A DNA stretch of 57,190 nucleotides from Neelides folsomi. Its lineage: Eukaryota; Arthropoda; Collembola; Neelipleona; Neelidae. Below the pieces are notes generated by a model. The model was not told the origin of the DNA. It did not search any database and was given only the letters and a program-made list of their open reading frames with translations. Location of the stretch: the NCBI GenBank assembly GCA_034687125.1, contig JAQGBZ010000382.1:1-57190 (forward strand), written 5' to 3'. Below are positions 2,396 to 51,888 of this stretch, piece by piece. Within the stretch, counting starts at the first letter, position 1; every line of letters starts with the position of its first letter. A program made the position numbers and the translations under genes.

Positions 2396-3966
2396 ATGCA
2401 GACCTATTATCTTGTAAGTAATTTTTATTTACTTTATTAAACTATTCTCTGTGTATTTAATCAAGTAATTTAACTCTGAAAAATTAAATGTTTAGATAAT
2501 GGGTTTTGTACTCACTGCATCTGTCACAATGATAAAGTCTGAAAATATGACTTTGGAAGAGTCAAAAGAAGTTAATTCCGTTGAAGATTCCTTTACAAAA
2601 CCAAACATTTACAATTTGAGAACTGGAGATCCTCAAAAGAGGCAGAAAAAAGGAAGATCGTTACAAAAAACTCTTATTCTTACACAAGGAGCTCAGCAAG
2701 TTGTTAGTTTTTTTTACTAATTTTATATTATTAAGTATTTTATATTATATAATTCTAGAATTTCTCTATCCATCTTTTAGTTATTTTACCATTTGTAATT
2801 ATTTTTTATAATTCTTAATAAAGTTTTATTTTTAGGTGGCAAAGCCAAATAAATTGTTTACTGCCGGATTTCTTCTACCATCATTGAAGGGTAAACTTCA
2901 CTTGCTTGTTTGCTCAAAAGTCATTTCATTTGGTCATGGATAATAGGTTAGGTTATCACATTAAGAGGACTGATCAAAATAGAAGATTAAAATTTATTCT
3001 ATTTATTTAAAAGTTAATATGGAAAATATAAAGTTTATTTTAAATTGTTTAGGTGGTGGTGGAGGATGGGGAAACAGTGGAGGCGGAGGAGGAGGCTGGG
3101 GCCAACAAGGTGGTGGTGGCTGGGGTCAAAGCAATCTCGGCGGCAGCGGATGGGGTCAAGGTGGTCAAAGCGGAGGAGGTGGAGGATGGGGTCAGCAACA
3201 AATGGGTTGGGGCGGTCAACAAGGAGGAGGAGGAGGATGGGGTCAACAAGGAGGAGGAGGTTGGGGCCAGCAGCAACAAATGGGCGGAGGAGGATGGGGT
3301 CAACAACAAATGGGTTGGGGTCAACAAGGCGGCGGAGGATGGGGACAACAACAAGGTGGCGGCGGAGGTGGATGGGGTTGGCCAGAAAAATGTGACAAGA
3401 AAAAGGCCAAAGCTCAAAAGAAGAAGGAAAAGGCCAAGAAGAAGGCTCAGAAAAAGTCTCAAAAGGGCAACAAGAAGGGTGGAGGTGGATGGGGCGGATG
3501 GGGAGGAAACAGCGGAGGTGGAGGAGGCGGAAGTGGATGGGACGAAGATGACGCCAGCCAAGAGTCCAGCGAAGAATGGAGGAGTTTGAGAAGCACAGAA
3601 CTTCCAATTCACATCTCGGAAATTCCCAGCGAAATGAATGTAAACCTGAAGAGCAAAAAAATGAAGAAGGGAGATTTGGGAACTCCGACGTTTAATGCAA
3701 GACAATGGCACTTTACTCCTCCGGTTGCGAATAATGAATGGAACCAAAGAGTCACAAATAATGAACCGGACATTTTTCAAGAAGATGAACCTGTTGTAAT
3801 CATCAATGGTGAAACTGGGACTATGTTGGATCTGAAAACGCAGCCGCTTCTTGATGAAAGTTCAAGTATTTTCCCAGAGAATACAATGACCTTTAAAATG
3901 ATTTGTCCAAAGAAACCCATGATTGATACAAGTGAATGCGTTTTCATCGCTGAGCAAAAGAAATAA
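2396..3966 (+). CDS. Secreted Gly/Trp/Gln-rich low-complexity protein with a Lys-rich block
   Basis: Four exons join in phase: 2396-2413, 2496-2699, 2836-2890 and 3053-3966, giving 396 residues. The first 17 or so residues (MQTYYL then IMGFVLTASVT) look like a signal peptide made by the exon 1-2 junction. A hydrophilic stretch with basic runs (QKRQKKGR) follows. Residues about 93-205 are repeats on the theme GGGGWGQQ with variants GWGQQQMG, and contain no Arg. Residues 206-235 are a Lys/Ala/Gln block starting at Cys206. A second short GGGWGGWGG segment is followed by an acidic patch (WDEDDAS). The last 125 residues are of normal complexity with two more Cys. Plausible roles are cuticle, matrix, adhesive or silk-like material. 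Nothing proves one, and I know no named family with this order. Long frames on the opposite strand here are shadows of the repeat. Confidence 0.75.
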
Positions 3967-5136: not shown

Positions 5137-8100
5137 ATGAATTTATATCAACTTCACTCTTCATATCTTGGCATTATCTTCATCACTCAAATTTTATCGA
5201 CGGTACGGGAAAATTAATATTGTATTCAACATATCATATTATGTAAAATGTAAAACAATTTGCTAAAATAGAAATACTTTTAGTAATAATTTTGTTCAAC
5301 CAGTAGTTTAATATTAAGTTTTTGCTACATTTATTTAACAGACTGCAGTTGAGTCGTGTCCAAATGCAATCTCTCAAAACGGTACTTTAATACTTACTTT
5401 ATGTAATTAACATTGTTGTATTATACATATAATGGAATATTCTTTGGCAATATTTAAAATCATGATTTGTGATCAATTAGATTATTTTATATTAGAACAA
5501 TTGTAGCTCATTTGTTTTTTAATGTCTTGTTTAATTTAGTATATAATGCAAAGTTAATGAATATCATACTTACAAATACTCTATGGTACATAATTAATAC
5601 TCTACATTTAGTAAGATTTATGGGCTATACAAATAAAATTTTAGGAAATTGTGCCTTTGACGATGACCTTACTGAAGAGATGGAAATAAGGCATATTCTG
5701 CTATTGGGACTTTCTGGTTCTGGAAAATCAGCAACAGTATGAGAGATGAATATTTGTATCATTGAATTTACCTATTAATGGAATTTTCAAGTCAAAATTT
5801 TTTGATATACTCAAAATATTAAAAAAATAACAATAATCTAAACTAAATTTTAATATCGATTTTAGTTGAACTTTCTCCTGAATCAAACAATAGCAGAAGT
5901 TGAAGAATTTGGTTCGAGTTCAGAGGCTGAATTAACCGAATATTTGGTTCCACTTTCAAAGTCAATTTCACTCAAAATCACCGACACTCCAGGAATTTTA
6001 GGAGACAGTGGAGTTGAACAAGATGCCCGAATCCTCTCAACACTCGAAGAATATTTAGAGGAAAATCAAAAAGAATTCAACGTTCCTCATTACGTTCTAA
6101 TATTTGCCAGATTTGATGATGATTCTTTAATCGAAGAAGGAAGCCCAAATTCGAAATTTGTGAAAATGTTAAAATCTTTTCATATTCTGAAAGATCTTTT
6201 TGAAGACTCTCCCACCAATTTAATCTTCGTCTTGACAAATGTACTGGGAGGATCAGAAATTGAGCGGAAAAATCCACAAGCTAAAATAAACGAATTTAAG
6301 CGATTAATCAGAGAATACACAACATTTGAATCTCCTTATCAAATCGTCTTGGCTGAGAATAAAGCAGATGAAGGAGAATTACGAGAAGTTTTGAATGCCG
6401 GTTACGTTTTACCTAATGGAGAAATTTATCCTCAAAACTTGAAAGAAAAACTCACAGAAATCTCAAATCAAAAAAACGATCCAATTGGAAAAGCTTTATT
6501 TACTTCAACTGATTATTTCAATGAAACTTCCTCATTTGAAAAAACCTTCCAACAAAGATCTTTTTCACTTCTTTTCAAAAATTCTCCTCAAGTGGTTAAA
6601 ATGCTAATTTTTCTCAATAACATGGACGTTAATTTCGAAGAAACGGAAATCTCAGAAAGGCTTGGAAAAACGTTTGAATCTTACGAACCGCGAATTAAGA
6701 ACCAAAATCAAGAGTCGTTGGAATATCTTCAAAAATATTTAAATCTTCGTTCTTTCACTCGACTGGCTCAAATCCCCATTGCCAAACATAAAGTTGCAAA
6801 ATTGGTGAAAAATATGAAAAAGGATGACTTTGCTTTGAACCTATTTGAAAAGGGTCTTGGAATGAAAGTTCCCAAATTACCAATTACATCACCTTTAGTT
6901 GGGAATTTGTACAACTCCATATCTGAACAAGTGTCAACAAAAAGTCCATTTGGATCTGGAAAATTTAAATTATCCGATTCGGGTTTCAAAATCCCGAGTA
7001 TTGTCTCAATGCGAAGGAGCGAAGAAGAAAAATTCCATTATCATTTCTTCGACACTAAAAGCGATTACTTCTCGGGGAAATATCCCCATTTTTTAATGAG
7101 AACAAACGAAAAGAGGAAATTACCTTCCGGGTATAATTTAAAAGGGGAAAGATTCTTAACAGCGTCATATGAAGTTCGCCTATTTGAGATGTTCATCCAT
7201 GTTCAAGATCATAAACGGATTTTAAATCGAGATCTCATGATCAGAGTGAGGAATTTGCCAGCATTCAATGAATCTCAATTTGATTCTCTTTTCAAATGGG
7301 AAAGTTTTTTCCACGATTTCGGAACTCATTTCATTTCTTCGGCCTTTGTTGGGGGAACTGTTATGTTCGAGTTTGAAGACGTCATTTCTAATACCAATAT
7401 GACAACAGTTGAAGAACTCGTAGATGAAATTATCAACGAAGACGTTAATTATAAATTTACAATTAAAGGTGGAAATCCTAAAAAGCATTTTTCAACCATT
7501 CGGGTATTTTCTTCATTTTATTCCACAAAAGCCGGGAAAAAGATGTTGAGAAAATGGCGAGAATCTTTAAACGATTATCCGGAAATGCTCGAAAGTGAAA
7601 TTAAGCTTTCACCGATTAGCTCTTTATTTTTAGAAAGATATTTTCACATTGCCCTCGACATGGATAAAGCTCTTCATTTCTTCAGTCGCCAAGCTGGGGC
7701 TGTTGGGGAATTGCAAGGTGGAGAAATCCAAAGACTCCACAACCAAACAGCAAATCTTAATGACGAACTCATTAAAAGAAATATAGAAGAAACAACGGTT
7801 GTGGCCAAATTGAAACAAGACATTCAAAATTTCCAAGCACAAAATTCAGAATTATCCAAAACCCTAACTGGATACGAATCAAGTTTCCGTGAATGTGAAT
7901 TGTCAATTAAAAAATTGAATTACAGTTTAGTGGGAGCAGGAGCTGAGGCGACAAGCGCCCTAAACTCCCTTGAGGATGTGAAGAGACAAATGTCAGAATG
8001 TAAGTTGAACGTGATTGAAATGAAAAGTCATCTTCATCAAGGTAGCTCCAAAACCCTCGATCTACAAAGTGAACATTTGGCATGTCAGTCAAAGCTTTTT

Positions 8101-8265
8101 GCCCTTGAGGACAAAGTGAATCGCCATAATTCGGAAATTGAAGAAGTGAACAAATTGAAAACAATGTGTGATCAAGCTCCAGCACATCCCATTTTCTCAG
8201 TTTGTCATTTTCATCGAAATCAGCTAATTGGGAAGTACAAGCCGTGTAGTCAAATTGCCATTTAA
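5137..8265 (+). CDS. Signal peptide + AIG1/GIMAP-like GTPase + MACPF (perforin-like) domain + coiled coil
   Basis: Exons 5137-5202, 5342-5381, 5645-5736 and 5866-8265 join in consistent phase for about 865 residues. Residues 1-22 (start MNLYQLH, core LGIIFITQILS) resemble a signal peptide. The GTPase has a P-loop GLSGSGKS at 57-64, split from the rest by an intron right after the GKSAT turn, a G3 DTPG at 106-109 and a G4-like VLTN at 188-191, closest in style to AIG1/GIMAP and Toc-type paraseptins. The MACPF part (roughly 440-655) has the exact signature FGTHF-x6-GG at 551-563 and the typical C-terminal helix KW-x-x-SL...P. Residues about 690-838 are a coiled coil, and the tail has several Cys. 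MACPF proteins oligomerise into membrane pores, and AIG1 GTPases assemble on membranes. The combination is not one I know. The 2400-nt last exon is intact. Exon 1 is the least certain part. Confidence 0.8.
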
Positions 8266-12389: not shown

Positions 12390-13998
12390 CTTCTCAAGCA
12401 GTGTTTTACGTCCCTTGAAGCTTGCATCCCCACGTCGAATACGGTTAAGTTTGAAACTTCTGACTTTTTTATTTTGAATTTTAAAAGATTTTGTTGAAGT
12501 TGAAACATTACTTTCATTTATCGATGTACAATTGACTTCTTTTTTGATTGAACTAGCATCTGATAATTTATTTTCAACAATTGATTCTTTGCCATCTTCA
12601 AGTTCTCCTTCTATAATTAAAAAAACTCATTGTAATTTAATTCTCCATCAAATTATCAAAAGCTTAAAATAACTCAAAAACTGTAAATTAATTAATGGTC
12701 TATGGTGTATTTTAATAATATGTAATACCTTCTAGTTCTGAATCACAAGATCCATAACCCAATAAGGACCCCAAGGCATTTGTCCCAACAACTTGTTTCT
12801 TTCCTTCATCTTCAGATTCTTTAATTTTTGAAGGACCCATAATTTCATCATCGTCTTCATCGTCAGTAATGGAAAAGTTTTGTGTAAATGCAGATCCCTC
12901 TTTTTCGATTTCTCCTTCAAATACTTTCCCATCATCAGCATCACCAATTTCCAACTTCCCTTTCCATATAGTTTTCTTGAGTCCAATAAGTTTTCCCCTT
13001 TCTTCAGAAAATTTGACTAATGAATAGAAAGACTCCAACAAAACAATTTCTGACTTATTACGTGGAAAGGCAGTTCTCTTATATAGGTTTGGTTGCTCAT
13101 TTCTATGTTGGTTTATATTACTATCAGCATTTCGATTTCGGGATTGATTGTCATTACATGGTGTATCGTTAGCTTTATATAAGTTGTTTTTAATTTCGAC
13201 AGGTGCGTCTTCCTCTTCACCTTCTTCAATTTCAATTTGAGGAATAATTGACGATAAGGCTGAACGAGAAATCCTCTCTGCAATTTCCATTTTCTTAATT
13301 CTATTTGATTCAGCTCTAACGTTTCTTTCATCCTGATGTTGAAGCCACACTTGGTGTCTCTGAGCCTTAGCATTATCATTTAATTGACTTTTTTCTAATG
13401 TAGGAAATTTCTGTCTTCTCTCTGCTTTCCACTTTTCAATTTCTTCCGGAGTTTCATAACCTTTAATTCTCGAATAAAGGTTTGTGGCATGTTGAATCTC
13501 AATATGCTTCAAGACAATGTTTGAATGTGCTGTAAATTTGCACCCATCAAGCCTTTTAAATAAATATAATAATTTTTAAATATTCGCATCTTTCATTATT
13601 TTACATTATAGAATTATAGGGTTTAATAGGGAGTATGAGTATAATATAAAATTAAAATCCTGACATCCTTACTTGCAAGTGATATGTTCTGTAAGATGTT
13701 CATCAAGCATGGACTTGGTACGAAAGAATCGATCACAAGGTTCGCAAGTAAAATTAAAATTAGTATAGGCTGAATGTTGAGGGGGACCCCCTTGACCACT
13801 TTGTCTCCCCTGTTCATTATTTTGATTATAATTGTGATTATAACCTTGATTCTGATTGTGAGCCGGAAAATTATTAGTAGAAGAAAAATTATCTTGATTC
13901 CGCTGATAACCTCGACCTCCTCGATGAGTTTGACGACCCCCACGACCACGACTCCCACCACGATAGGGAAATTTTTGTCTACCACGATTAAAATCCAT
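12390..13998 (-). CDS. NUFIP1: NUFIP1-like C2H2 zinc-finger protein (box C/D snoRNP assembly); last exon unresolved
   Basis: On the minus strand, exons 13998-13673, 13552-12729 and 12610-12390 join in phase to 457 codons. The N-terminus is RG-rich (GGSRGRGG) then Asn/Gln-rich. A C2H2 finger (FTCEPCDRFFRTKSMLDEH, residues about 85-107) runs into a second Cys/His unit and KHIEIQHATNLYSRI. Next is the hallmark NUFIP block GYETPEEIEKWKAERRQKFP. The known role is a nuclear adaptor (Rsa1 in yeast) that helps R2TP/HSP90 load proteins onto box C/D snoRNAs, and it was first found as an FMR1 partner. The third exon ends ...GRKTLLEK at a GT donor, which matches the start of the family's C-terminal box, but I cannot find a following exon that clearly encodes that box. 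A candidate at 12250-12188 gives only 20 residues. Confidence 0.85.
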
Positions 13999-38600: not shown

Positions 38601-40488
38601 ATGAGCAGAGCAATTAGCAGAATATTTCAATGTCTAATCTTTAAACACGGGAATTATCACCATAATTGTTATTCAATCGGAAGCAAAAGGTCTTCACCGG
38701 CTTCACTTTTATATCACTGTCAGGAGTATTCAACTTCGGCTATAAGATCAACTGTAGTTTCGAAAGAATTAACCGATAACAAGGACAAGACCTATGAATA
38801 TGAATTCGATCTTATTGAACAGCGGATGGAATGGACACAGGGAGTTAGTCGAGGAAAAGCTCTCATTGATTCCATGGTTGAATATCTATCTCGAAATCCA
38901 AAGCTTACTCATAAAGTATCATTTGAATCAATGAAATCTCGTACTGAAAAGGTGGACCACTTTTTTAAAAGACAAACATTTGGTGAGTTTTTCTAAATAA
39001 ATTCCATTATGTCCCTATAAAATATCATTGAATTGAATCATACTGAATATTAATACATTGAAAATATTTATGTATACCAATAGAAATTAGAACACTTGGA
39101 TAATATTAACTGTGAAGTTGTATTCATTTTAAGTATAATCATGTCATTATGTTAATGTTACCCTAATATCTGGATTTATTTTTATAGGGGCCCATTTGCT
39201 AAATGCCTGTTTAATTACTGACAATTTAGCATTGGGGAAAAGATATTATGATGAAGAGAAATCACATAGTTTATCGGCGATGGCTAACTACATCCGGCTC
39301 CTTGCTCGTCGTAAAGGCCCAACAAAGAATTTCGAAGCTGACATTCTTTCAATTTACGAACAAATTCAAAAGAAAAATAACAACACGTGGGATTTGAATA
39401 CAGGAGAAAAAGTGGTTGAAGCAATTATTCTAACAAAGAAATGGAGAGATGCTTTTAAAATAGTCGAAGAAATGAAGATAGGTGGTCCTATTCCAGGCGC
39501 CGTTTACGCTGATTTAGCCACAGCATCGTTCAACAATAAGGATTTTGACACCGGTTGGTCTCTCTTACAAGGAGATGGGAAACAAAGATTTACAATTACT
39601 CCATTTGTAGCCTGGCTTCGCAATTGTCCGGTAAAAAATGAAGAAAACATGAAAAGACTTTTAGATTATCTCGACGAAAATAATATTTATGTCACAGGGG
39701 AATTAGTGGAAGAAGTCAAATTTTATTTTAAAAATGAATTGCGTTACAATGTTTTTGAAACTAAAATTAATTTTCACAACTCTTCTTGTAAACGGTGCAA
39801 AGGAAAACTTGAACAAAATCAACTTACTCCAAATGAATTCGAGGAGCTTCAAAAGTTATTCCTGGATAGAGTTGTCAAAGACCAGGATGTTTTCCTTAAC
39901 ACAAATCCCAAAGAATTGCAAAGATACATTGAATTTATAAACAAATCATCCGCGTTTGATTTCATTGTCGATGGACTCAACGTTGGATTGAGTCATAAAA
40001 TGGGTAAGAAGCTTTCTAAAGGTCCAGGTCAAATTCTCTTTTCTGCTGTGAAACAATTGAAAGATAGACGAAGTAATATTTTAGTCATTGGAAGAAAACA
40101 TATGGTGACTTGGAGTGAATGGTCACATATTAAACAATCAGCAGAAACCTTTCTCATTGAAGATATGTCTAAAGATGATCCTTTTATTTTATATGCGACA
40201 ATGAAAAGTGGAATTCATGCTAAATTCATTTCTCGAGATTTAATGCACTCGCATTCATTCAGACTTCAAGACACCAAATTCGAAAGGATGTTCAAACGTT
40301 GGAGACTTTCTGCCCAATTGTCCCCTTTTTTCGGCCCACAAGGAGTTTTCAGACTCAAGCCCTTCAGTGACATTCTTCCTGTGCCGCAAAAGAACAATAA
40401 TTGTTGGCATATTCCTTATGATAACGAACTTCTCATTTCTCCTTATGCAATACCGGATAACTGGCTCTGTTTTGAACCAGTTAAGTAA
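38601..40488 (+). CDS. PRORP: PRORP (MRPP3), protein-only mitochondrial RNase P nuclease
   Basis: Two exons (38601-38982 and 39188-40488) join in phase to 560 residues. The N-terminus is rich in Arg, Ser and His with few acidic residues, fitting a mitochondrial presequence. A PPR-like helical region covers about 100-300. The zinc-binding CKRC and the closing HIPYDN...WLCFEP frame the NYN nuclease domain. Its four catalytic Asp are visible: D389 (VDGLNVG), D457-D458 (KDDPF) and D478 (SRDLMH). Their spacing of 68, 1 and 20 nearly equals that of human PRORP. The enzyme cuts the 5' leader from mitochondrial tRNA precursors, in animals together with the TRMT10C-HSD17B10 complex. Confidence 0.95.
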
Positions 40489-47103: not shown

Positions 47104-49038
47104 TTAAGATCTTGGTGGAATAACGGCTGCGGCTGTAGCAATAGCAGCTCCAGCTTCAATGTAGTCAAGAAGGGGAATTTTAAAATAATTCCAAACAAGA
47201 GCCGCAATTCCAAGAACAACGATGATAATGAGCAAAATATTAATATTGAAAAGTACTTCTATGTTGTGTTCCAAAACCTCGAGTCTCTTAATTAACTCTT
47301 CCTATCAGGATATAATTCAGTAACTAGTATAGGTAAACAACTTGCATAATAATTGAAAATCAAAAGTAGTTAAATCTGTCACCTCCAAAGGGTCATCTGG
47401 ATTGTAATGATTCGGAAGGTGCGGATGGGGAGCTTCTTCGATAGTAGCATTATTTTTATGGGCAGGTCTTGAATAAAGCGGAATAACGTTCACTCGATGA
47501 CATTCAATTCGTCGTCCTTCATTCACAAGTTGCTAATTATGATGTAATAATTTCAATGAGCAATTAATTTTCTTTTAAACATATTTGCTGAAAATAAATT
47601 AAAATTTGACCAACTTTAAACAAATGTGAAGTGGCTTCTTTCGACAGTTCGATATCCGAAGGTGCTAAAATGACTTTCACTTGGAAAAAGAAGGATTGAA
47701 ATTCTTCTTCTTCGTATCCCGTGTAATTGAAATTGCTATTCACTTCAAATGAAATCCGCGTTTCTCCTCCCCATCCAATCACTCCAAGATTTGGAAGCAC
47801 TTTAAACGTTTCAGGTGAGTTTGATTCAATCTTTAACAAAACAATGTCTTAATATTTTATAACGTACATTACATACATCACTATTTAGTTTGACTATTTT
47901 GAATAACGTGGAATAATATTACTTTATTTAAATACCTTATAAATGATGAACCTTCTCTCAGGTGCTATATTGTGAATGATGATGAATCCTCTATAACGAA
48001 CTTCTGAAAGTGATCGAGGCCTTTGATGATGACGATGATAGTGATAGCGACTTCTGACATCGTTAGAGGTCTCGTATTTTTTGAACAAAGCTTTCTTTGA
48101 CTTCGTCCCAAGATCTTTTACTATTTGGGCAGCATATTGAACTTTTGGGCCCATTGAACGTTTATGGTCATGTGCTAAATGGATACCCTGAAGATAATTT
48201 CCGCCGACCAAGAGAGGATCGAGTTTATTATGATGGTGATGTCCCCTACTTCCTGTAGCTACTGAACCCAACTTGTCATGTAAATCAAAATGAGAATCTT
48301 CAACAATTTTGGATAATCTCAATGATTGTGATATCTCCGCAAGACGTATGGTTGATCCACCTATTAAATATCTTACATTATTACATTCAATAATTACATT
48401 TATAATAATTGTCGTTAGTGTTTTGAATATTCTTATTTTAAATTTTTATAACATATTTATTACTATTTTGACAATGTGTAACATAGTCACATCTTCCAAA
48501 GTTGGACATCAATAGATTGAATTTGCTCCGTTGATGAATTTCATCATGTTCTGACTCTTCTTGTTCTTTGGTGTCTGTTTGGAATGTTTCTTGTCTGTCT
48601 TCAGTTGTTGGAACTGATGGTTGACCATATGATTGTTGGCCATATGATGGTTGGTCCAATGATGGTTGGCCATAAGATGGTTGGTCAAATGATGGTTGGT
48701 CATGTGATGGTTCTGGCTCTTGTCTAGTTGAATGGCTTTCAGTCTCTTCAGGTGTTCTAGCTTGCTCCACAGTTAAAACATTTTCATCAATGTTGCCCCC
48801 TGTATTGCATAAGTATAATATATTTAGTATATAGCATGACTGTTTTCGAATGATAAATTCTGACAAATACCACCAAGCAATGAACATTGTGATTGTGATT
48901 TAGCATTTTAACAAAATCAAGCAATAAGTATATTATGTAAAAATACATACCTAATGTGATTTGACCTGGTTCAATTTCTTGAACAGAAATACGTTCATTT
49001 CTCTTCGGTTCATCATCGGAAGGCGTTGAACGAATCAT
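47104..49038 (-). CDS. MSP-domain, C-tail-anchored membrane protein (VAP/MOSPD-like) with long disordered N-terminus
   Basis: Six minus-strand exons (49038-48951, 48799-48491, 48360-47936, 47830-47615, 47532-47383, 47301-47104) join in phase to 461 residues. The first 130 residues are disordered and include six tandem five-residue units [DG]Q[PQ]S[FYLV]. Next come a His cluster (GHHHHNK) and YHYHRHHQRPR. Residues about 240-365 resemble a major-sperm-protein domain: YRGFIIIHN, RRFIIYKIESNSPETFKVLP, NLGVIGWGG and FFFQVKVILAP. A coiled segment and one membrane helix (ILLIIIVVLGIAALVWNYF, about 417-435) close the protein. VAP-type proteins sit in the ER membrane and bind FFAT motifs at contact sites. 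The KTT segment they use for that reads ESN here, so FFAT binding may be lost. Confidence 0.75.
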
Positions 49039-49344: not shown

Positions 49345-51888
49345 TCAAGTACTTTTGAAAGGGATTGGATTTACTGGTTTACAAAAGCAATAATTTTTAA
49401 TTAGATTATCGTTCACACAGATAGAGTCATTGCCATACAACGTCGTTCGAATCACATTTTTTACACTCCATTTCTTTTTCGATTCTTTAACTATTAGAGT
49501 TTCAAAAACTCCTCGGCCAGGTATAGCCGACACTGTGATTTCAAATAGATCAAGAATCATTTCATCTTTGCTTTCATTTTGATTTAATTCTGATTCATCA
49601 GCCATAATTCGTTTAGAACTTACAATTTCTTTTAAAGCCAACTTTTCACATTCTGGAAATTTTTGTAACTTATTATTCAAGTAATTAATAATTTCGTTTG
49701 CTCCTCTTTCAACATTATTTTTATCCCTTTCCTCAGTTTCAATTTTTGAATGGCAAACGCAATATTGGATTGGAATTCCGGCATCGGAACATGTACGCTT
49801 ATGGGGAATAGGAAGAAACAAACTGATCCCTCTTGGCATTTTGCTCAACTTTTTAAGGATCATTTCCCTCACATTCAATTTCTCATTGGAAATTCTTCTC
49901 AAATCGAGTAAATCTTTTAAGGTTTCGTAAAAATCGAAATGAGAAGTCAAAGCTTGGGTGTTTGCATTTACATTTTTCACGGCTTGCTCATGATCTTGGC
50001 GGAATTTGTCTGGGAGGATTAAATAAAGGAACGGCATTCTTGCTTCAATTTGCCCTTGCATTGTTTTCGTAATTTCTCCCCATCGAATTCCGTGATCGCT
50101 CATTAAAATCAAAATGGTGTTGTTTAAATACCCTTCATTTTTCATCCATCTAATTGTTTTGAAAAGAGCTTTATCTCCCAATTTCGGATAATTGACATAA
50201 TCATGAAAAAGTGAAGTTGCCCACATAAATTCAAAATATCGTCTGTCTTTTTCTTCACCACCAAAATAAGCCATTTTTTTCACGACGTCCAACATTACAT
50301 CAAATGCGAGTCTTGGGCCGTAGCACAAATTCGCATTTAACTTTTTATTATTCCCAATTTCATTGTCTGCTTTCTTAAAGAATGGTTCTAAGAAATAATC
50401 GACGGGGTTTCCTTTAAAGCCTTTTTTGAGATAATTGAAAATTCCTATTCGAGGAGCGTCTTCAAAATATGTTGTGTAATATCCTTTATTTTTGAAATCT
50501 GTCCAAATAAATGGACAAAAATCAAAATAATTTTTATTGGAATCTAGTGAACACACTCTTTCTAATTCCTCAATTGACTTCCCAGTTAGCGCTGGAATCT
50601 ATTTAATTAAGCAATTATTTTTAATTAAATTTTAAACAATTAATATTAAACAATGAACTTTTAAATATTCCCTAACTTTAAAATTATAGATTTATAATTA
50701 ATAATTATAGGATATTTTGTAATTACGAGAATCGGAAAAGTATTATCTCCCACTTTTGTTAATCCATTCATTTCAATACCTTTAAGTTCTTTTACAATAT
50801 ATTCGCTAGTTTTTGGCATTGTTCTATTGAGAAATTATATAGATTAAAGATTACATTTAGAAACATTTTATACTATACATAAGATAAAATAATATTCTTA
50901 AATAATTTAAACTGTAATTAAGTTAAGAGTAAAAACCAACCGTTTAAAATTCATATGAGAAACAGCATCAATTCCAAGAACAACAACGTTATATTGTTTT
51001 GCTATATCATAATCTAAGTCAATTGCACCAGAATTCTTTAATTCTTTAAGTTTCATTTCAATCAAAGGCTTTTTTCGAATGAGGGGTAAAATGTCAATCA
51101 ATGAAGTATTTTCAACAATGGAATTTTCGCAATAAACTGAAATTGCATCATAATCTCCAGTTATATCAGTTTCAAGTTCTCTAATTAAATTGCATTCTTT
51201 GGATTCTCTAAAATTAAAATTTCTCATTCAAAAATAGAAAAAAGAAATAGAAAAAATATAAAAAATTTAATTAAATATGCAACTTATTTAAGTAGCTTAT
51301 TACAAGATAAATATCATTTATTTGGCATAAATATCAATTAGTTCATAAAAACAGAAAAACTTACTCAAAAATAATTTTATTCGATTTCTCTTTGGTACTC
51401 TGATTGATGAACTTATAACAGCAACTTTTAATATCAAATTTTCCAATATCATCTAAAAAGATAATTTTTGACGATGAAACGTCTGATTCAAAAAGTAGAG
51501 GGAAGTCTTTTGAACAAACAACTTTCTCTGGTTCTTTAAAAGATTCCATTATTGTTTTGTTAAATGGGTTTAATAAAGGTAATTTACAGTGTCTTTTGCT
51601 TGTTACAAGATTTGGATTATTTGTAATGTCAAAAGATAAGTTTTCATTTCCCTTATTTAATTTATATTTGGAAAAGTCAAATTTTGAAACTTTTTCGTTT
51701 ATTTTGTTCTTGGGTTGTATTTTTAAAGAGGTTGTAAAATTATTGAGTTTTTTAGCCAGGGCTTCCTGCACATTTTCATTGGCATATATAAAGTACAAAG
51801 TAGTCACAACGATTGATAAAATAAAAAGACTGACGATTCGGCAAGGATTTGATTTGATTTCGTATTCCAAATTTTCTTTTCTCTTCAT
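49345..51888 (-). CDS. DUF229 type II membrane protein, alkaline-phosphatase/sulfatase fold
   Basis: Four minus-strand exons (51888-51365, 51207-50941, 50823-50727, 50598-49345) join in phase to 713 residues. A single membrane segment near the start (IVSLFILSIVVTTLYFIY, about 18-35) places the rest in the lumen or outside. The catalytic fold shows in NVVVLGIDAVSHMNF (Asp255, Ser258), where sulfatases and phosphatases place a metal ligand and nucleophile, and in LMSDHGIRWGE (Asp464, His465). The tail is Cys-rich (SICVNDNLIKNYCFCKP). DUF229 proteins are abundant in nematodes and arthropods and their substrate is unknown. The active residues look intact, so a phospho- or sulfo-hydrolase or a phosphoethanolamine-type transferase is possible. 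Confidence 0.88.

Follow-up and report, generated by a model that had tools for sequence, protein, structure and literature searches.

A predicted gene joining a Toc/AIG1-like GTPase to a perforin-type MACPF domain in the collembolan Neelides folsomi

Toc and GIMAP GTPases pair or polymerise in a nucleotide-dependent way. MACPF pores form when two hairpin regions unfurl (PMC7593815), and in lancelets MACPF and AIG1 are given as separate enriched domains in one study (PMC12373286). Both kinds of domain are found in a single chain in stonustoxin-type proteins, in which a MACPF_SNTX domain (PF24674) at the N-terminus is followed by DUF7656 (PF24676) and, towards the C-terminus, by an AIG1-like GTPase. 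Two genes of this order, each a single open frame of more than 1000 codons that begins directly with the MACPF domain, are carried by the genome of the collembolan Neelides folsomi itself (C555, L017 2104-5319; C681, L018 3066-6608). C555 matched stonustoxin chains with an E-value of 7e-32, and its use as a query against protein sequences retrieved 21 matches, including sequences of the centipede Strigamia maritima, the oribatid mite Oppiella nova and fungi. PF24674 was found in 21 of these 21 proteins and a GTPase Pfam family in 12. A P-loop pattern was present in all 14 stonustoxin-type sequences examined, i.e., the two Neelides genes and 12 of the 21 matches, P0007, P0015 and P0018-P0024 being left out.

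The gene analyzed here has the GTPase first. It lies in a window of 57,190 nucleotides that corresponds to an entire contig (C382) of the N. folsomi assembly (75.1 Mb, 840 contigs). The original prediction, made from the letters alone, had described it as a signal peptide, an AIG1/GIMAP-like GTPase, a MACPF pore domain and a coiled coil joined in one gene. Coordinates are collected in Table 1.

Table 1. Features of the GTPase-MACPF gene and neighbouring genes in the window
Feature	Coordinates	Strand	Details
GTPase-MACPF gene	5137-8265	+	four exons
Exon 1	5137..5202	+	MNLYQLHSSYLGIIFITQILST, a hydrophobic leader that may be a signal peptide; open frame followed by a GT donor at 5203
Exon 2	5342..5381	+	holds Cys28; AG acceptor before 5342, GT at 5382
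Exon 3	5645..5736	+	P-loop GLSGSGKS at 5707-5730 (residues 57-64)
Internal Met48	5680	+	exon 3; possible cytosolic start
Exon 4	5866..8265	+	799 codons and stop; remaining G domain, linker, MACPF, coiled coil
G3 motif DTPG, residues 106-109	5983..5994	+	exon 4; D, P and G invariant in six-row family alignment
Conserved linker, residues ~270-398	6475..6861	+	between G domain and MACPF, probably helical; aligned in C778, P0001, P0002, P0003
MACPF domain, residues ~399-659	6862..7644	+	PF01823 at 491-585; family profile matches C8 beta, C7 and perforin chains
MACPF signature FGTHF-x6-GG, residues 551-563	7318..7356	+	FGTHFISSAFVGG; motif present
Segment expected for second membrane hairpin (TMH2)	7357..7467	+	37 residues, short
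Heptad coiled coil, residues 701-840	7768..8187	+	single register; heptad analysis
Cys743	7894..7896	+	heptad position d
Cys778	7999..8001	+	heptad position d
Cys806	8083..8085	+	heptad position d
Cys834	8167..8169	+	heptad position d
NUFIP1	12712-13575	-	neighbour gene
Protein-only RNase P (PRORP)	39139-40488	+	neighbour gene
DUF229/sulfatase	49345-50598	-	neighbour gene

Gene structure and relatives

As originally proposed, the locus could be read as one continuous gene, in which three canonical GT-AG introns separate the exons of a protein of 865 amino acids devoid of internal stops. Independence of the fusion from splicing had also been claimed, on the grounds that the MACPF and GTPase motifs share the 2400-nt exon. 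This applies to the G3 motif and to the MACPF domain, but not to the P-loop, which lies on exon 3, so that the GTPase depends on one splice, although the paralogue C778 keeps the intron concerned. At the local, AT-rich base composition, the 799 open codons of the last exon would be expected by chance with a probability of about 1e-28 for a given start.

The paralogue on C778 is intact and consists of three exons encoding 755 amino acids, with a P-loop, a DTPG motif and a MACPF domain matched at 67 bits, and without a leader. Its intron after GKS-S/A-T occupies the same place and phase as that of the window gene. Where its MACPF exon begins, the paralogue has an intron of some 2 kb (L014 4524-6553), which may hold a remnant of a mobile element, as judged by eye. 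Elsewhere in the genome, a relative on C413 is decayed, its open piece beginning near window residue 179 and its frame containing stops, and neither P-loop nor G3 was recovered in it. Just upstream of this copy, two tandem and very similar open frames of about 610 codons (L015 316-2154 and 2994-4826) look ionotropic receptor-like by eye. On C573, only a piece of the GTPase was found, with no match to MACPF. A genome search with PF01823, which works exon by exon and therefore gives lower bounds, found at least three places, all of them in loci of the GTPase-MACPF family.

Outside Neelides, three proteins (P0001-P0003) matched with E-values of 1.5e-50, 2.0e-45 and 3.8e-32, in alignments that cover 58-71% of the query at 25-27% identity. 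All three share the G3 region, the linker and the MACPF domain, within which P0002 ends, and all three lack the P-loop. P0001 and P0002 begin exactly at the start of the exon that follows the P-loop, which would fit an unspliced prediction from genomic contigs. A profile search for further homologues returned two proteins, both already known, and not P0003. A search for the same architecture elsewhere, which had been suggested as a check, yielded an intact paralogue and three outside proteins that share the layout from G3 on. The window gene is a member of a small arthropod GTPase-linker-MACPF family. Because its layout and the intron that follows the P-loop recur in C778, and because the outside proteins share this layout from G3 on, the fusion is not attributed to a splice artefact and is considered real with near certainty.

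Other origins of the locus were rejected. A bacterial contaminant is ruled out by the introns, by the contig neighbours NUFIP1, PRORP and DUF229/sulfatase, and by the presence in the assembly of a mitochondrial genome using the invertebrate code. Two genes run together are ruled out by the position of G3 and MACPF on one exon and by the paralogue of the same layout, and a transposon product by the lack of any such Pfam match in the window protein. The mitochondrial contig (15,157 bases) has open frames when the invertebrate code is applied. ND2-CO1-CO2-ATP6-CO3-ND3 follow one another on one strand and ND5-ND4-ND4L lie on the other, which we take to be the ancestral arthropod order; CO1 and the large rRNA were named by family matches and the other mitochondrial genes by eye. 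The window further contains a frame of 327 codons (2983-3966, +) with GGGGWGQQ repeats and Lys-rich and acidic parts, perhaps structural or silk-like, which gave no Pfam match, and a tandem repeat of 6.5 copies of 15 bp (48615-48712). A tRNA scan across the window returned none.

The MACPF and GTPase domains

The presence of a MACPF domain was confirmed by PF01823, which scored 42.4 bits for a Pfam cut-off of 21.5, i.e., about twice the cut-off. However, 'complete' in the original prediction is true of the FGTHF-x6-GG signature only, since of the 214 profile positions the match extends no further than 107, a truncation that the short segment of the second hairpin probably explains. Using a four-sequence MACPF profile, 19 distinct PDB sequences were matched within an E-value of 0.1. 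C8 beta ranked first (3.5e-8), and C7 aligned across profile positions 11-277. From the GG of the signature to the next GG, the span of TMH2 comprises 37 residues in the window copy versus 63 in C778, 58 in P0001 and 47 in P0003. This shortening makes normal perforation by the window copy doubtful, and a classical pore made by it is judged unlikely. Two AlphaFold predictions, each based on only four sequences, reached mean pLDDT values of 42.9 and 47.5. In the MACPF domain pLDDT was mostly 22-52, too low to place the hairpins or the fold, while the linker was modelled as helices with values of 64-77 in its best part. No MACPF chain was present among the Foldseek rows listed, which is uninformative given the low model confidence in this part.

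The GTPase was recognized through the P-loop and the DTPG motif, both of which were found as predicted, and through a match to MMR_HSR1 at residues 53-118 (24.2 bits for a Pfam cut-off of 21.9). The assignment to AIG1/GIMAP was only partly upheld, since AIG1 (PF04548, residues 52-120) reached 26.3 bits for a cut-off of 27 and is therefore 0.7 bits short. The best PDB sequence matches of the G domain in a single-sequence search were Toc33/34 chains (E 0.0008), and a second stretch, AEN..LPNGE, aligned weakly with Toc33 (4.6 bits). In a low-confidence model of P0001, Foldseek placed Toc34 first (probability 0.97, E 0.012, with all rows above E 0.001). The nearest entries to the low-confidence model of the window exon were mostly entries with GTPases, a comparison that concerns the G-domain part. 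A four-sequence GTPase profile gave no match to a PDB chain within the threshold of E 0.1. Among NCBIfam models, only Toc, small-GTPase and SMC models matched the window protein, all far below their cut-offs. A search of the N. folsomi genome with the AIG1 profile returned the two stonustoxin-type genes and not the window gene. At the sequence level, the domain is nevertheless a clear GTPase, predicted to be Toc/AIG1-like. In the alignment, the presumed G4 motif reads TN in the window copy versus TH in C778 and P0001; as TH is presumably the G4 of Toc, guanine binding by the window copy may be lost.

Coiled coil, cellular location and possible mode of action

The predicted C-terminal coiled coil was borne out. 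Indeed, the heptad score of residues 683-835 was reached by none of 5000 shuffles, and a single register was best over residues 701-840, another one fitting better before residue 694. Of the 36 LIVMF residues in the coil, 13 occupy class a and 10 class d, where E/K/R/D/Q residues amount to one each; the coil is mostly helix in the low-confidence AlphaFold model. The window protein contains eight cysteines (28, 38, 743, 778, 806, 834, 846 and 860), leaving residues 39 to 742 without any. At the cysteine rate of C778, such a stretch of 704 residues would occur with a chance of 8.4e-5. The placing of all four coil cysteines at position d has a chance of 0.0003 (0.002 for any one class), both statistics having been conceived after the sequence was seen. 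Ten cysteines are spread throughout C778, six occur in P0003 and none in P0001 and P0002. In the decayed C413, an open piece of 394 amino acids is free of cysteines, and tail pieces carry cysteines 14 residues apart in one and 13 in another. A stapled coil does not characterize the family as a whole, because P0001 has neither cysteines nor a clear heptad signal in its tail (968 of 5000 shuffles as good). The combination of Cys-free domains and d-position cysteines fits an oxidising compartment as the location of the window copy, as for extracellular disulfide-stapled coils. This is in line with PLVAP, compared here for the principle of a core-cysteine, disulfide-stapled coil and not for homology, which forms an extracellular parallel coil dimer with several interchain disulfides (PMC10083539).

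The original claim of a signal peptide fared less well. Among 339 ATG..GTA leaders sampled at random from this AT-rich DNA, with repeats allowed, 53 were as hydrophobic as the modelled leader, which lies within chance, and two of the four one-exon leaders that could join exon 2 were more hydrophobic. The idea of secretion is supported by the cysteine pattern rather than by the leader alone: with its Cys-free domains and four d-position cysteines, this pattern is the better argument for an extracytosolic location. N-glycosylation sequons did not discriminate between copies (six in the window protein, eight in C778). Overall, an extracytosolic window copy is slightly favoured.

In the explanation that we consider best, albeit tentatively, the G domain would pair or polymerise in a nucleotide-dependent way, by analogy with Toc and GIMAP GTPases, and this assembly would bring the MACPF modules into an array on a membrane, with defence as the probable function. 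The window copy would be the extracytosolic form, in the ER lumen or secreted: its folded domains lack cysteines, and those in the core of its tail coil could link chains through disulfides into a parallel dimer or oligomer. Because its second hairpin is short, a small pore or an array resembling a prepore would be likelier than a pore of the classical giant kind. C778, in which cysteines are distributed over the whole protein, the leader is lacking and the tail is hydrophobic, looks cytosolic and membrane-tethered. The fusion on which the proposed control of pore assembly by the GTPase was built is real and recurs in a family, but the control itself is an inference, and the short hairpin speaks against a normal pore in the window copy; nucleotide-controlled MACPF assembly is given an even chance. 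A bolder version, in which a secreted or ER-lumenal stapled machine would use GTP/GDP as an assembly clamp or as a damage signal (extracellular GTP) while its cytosolic sister C778 uses the same switch inside cells, is rather improbable.

Several readings compete with this explanation. The window protein may instead be cytosolic, exons 1 and 2 being wrong or optional and translation starting at Met48 or elsewhere. It would then be an intracellular GTP-switched effector resembling C778, its missing cysteines reflecting chance or drift. GTP is cytosolic and scarce outside the cytosol. The chance-level hydrophobicity of the leader, the lack of one in C778 and the existence of alternative starts, among them Met48 and a frame that extends open from exon 3 back to 5473, also favour this reading. 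Besides, a study of Biomphalaria glabrata states that none of its AIG genes encodes a signal peptide (PMC7053062), so that a secreted member would be unusual. Against it stands the fit of the 704 Cys-free residues and the four d-position cysteines with an oxidising compartment, and we hold a cytosolic protein to be a minority possibility.

A further possibility is that the MACPF domain has become a scaffold that no longer makes pores and the GTPase has degenerated, the protein binding or organising a surface by oligomerising. The hairpin segment shorter than in three relatives, the truncated Pfam match and the replacement of TH by TN would agree with such a loss, whereas the P-loop, DTPG and the MACPF signature are all kept and the model confidence is too low for hairpin placement; this reading is regarded as improbable. 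That the gene model is an artefact or the copy dead, as the decay of its paralogue on C413 could suggest, is very hard to reconcile with the stop-free 799 codons and with an intact C778 of the same layout and intron, and is given almost no credence.

Comparison with known MACPF-GTPase fusions

The original prediction had seen a new effector design in this gene. This was too strong, as the N. folsomi genome itself, a centipede, an oribatid mite and fungi have stonustoxin-type fusions with the domains the other way round. Among the papers listed in a search of the open-access literature, none was seen to describe a GTPase-first fusion with a perforin-type MACPF domain. The two systems share a single-chain construction and a homologous Toc/AIG1-like GTPase (profile probability 98.5, E 1.9e-15). 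They differ in that the stonustoxin type has MACPF first, DUF7656 in between and the GTPase late, whereas the order is reversed in the window gene, and in their MACPF domains, between which no similarity could be detected (profile probability 22.9 over 32 columns). Neither PF24674 nor PF24676 was found in the window protein at E-values up to 1. In a GTPase tree of 20 rows without outgroup, the stonustoxin type and the window family formed two groups (100/100); the branches leading to C573, P0003 and the window row were long.

Compared with Toc34/Toc159 and AIG1/GIMAP, the window GTPase lies below the AIG1 cut-off, is fused to MACPF, may carry a leader and belongs to a protein with Cys-free domains. 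Perforin- and complement-type MACPF proteins resemble the window protein in the PF01823 score, the signature and the profile matches to C8 beta and C7, but they differ from it in its N-terminal GTPase and linker, its short second hairpin segment and its Cys-core heptad coil. The window copy may also be one of the rare GTPases that are located outside the cytosol. A Toc/AIG1-like GTPase was apparently tied to a pore-domain fold on two occasions, which differ in the MACPF subfamily and in the order of the domains, and this apparent double origin makes the coupling a testable case for nucleotide-driven assembly as a general control of MACPF rings. The coupling of MACPF and GTPase is already known in kind; what appears to be new, within the literature searched, is the GTPase-first order with a perforin-type MACPF domain.
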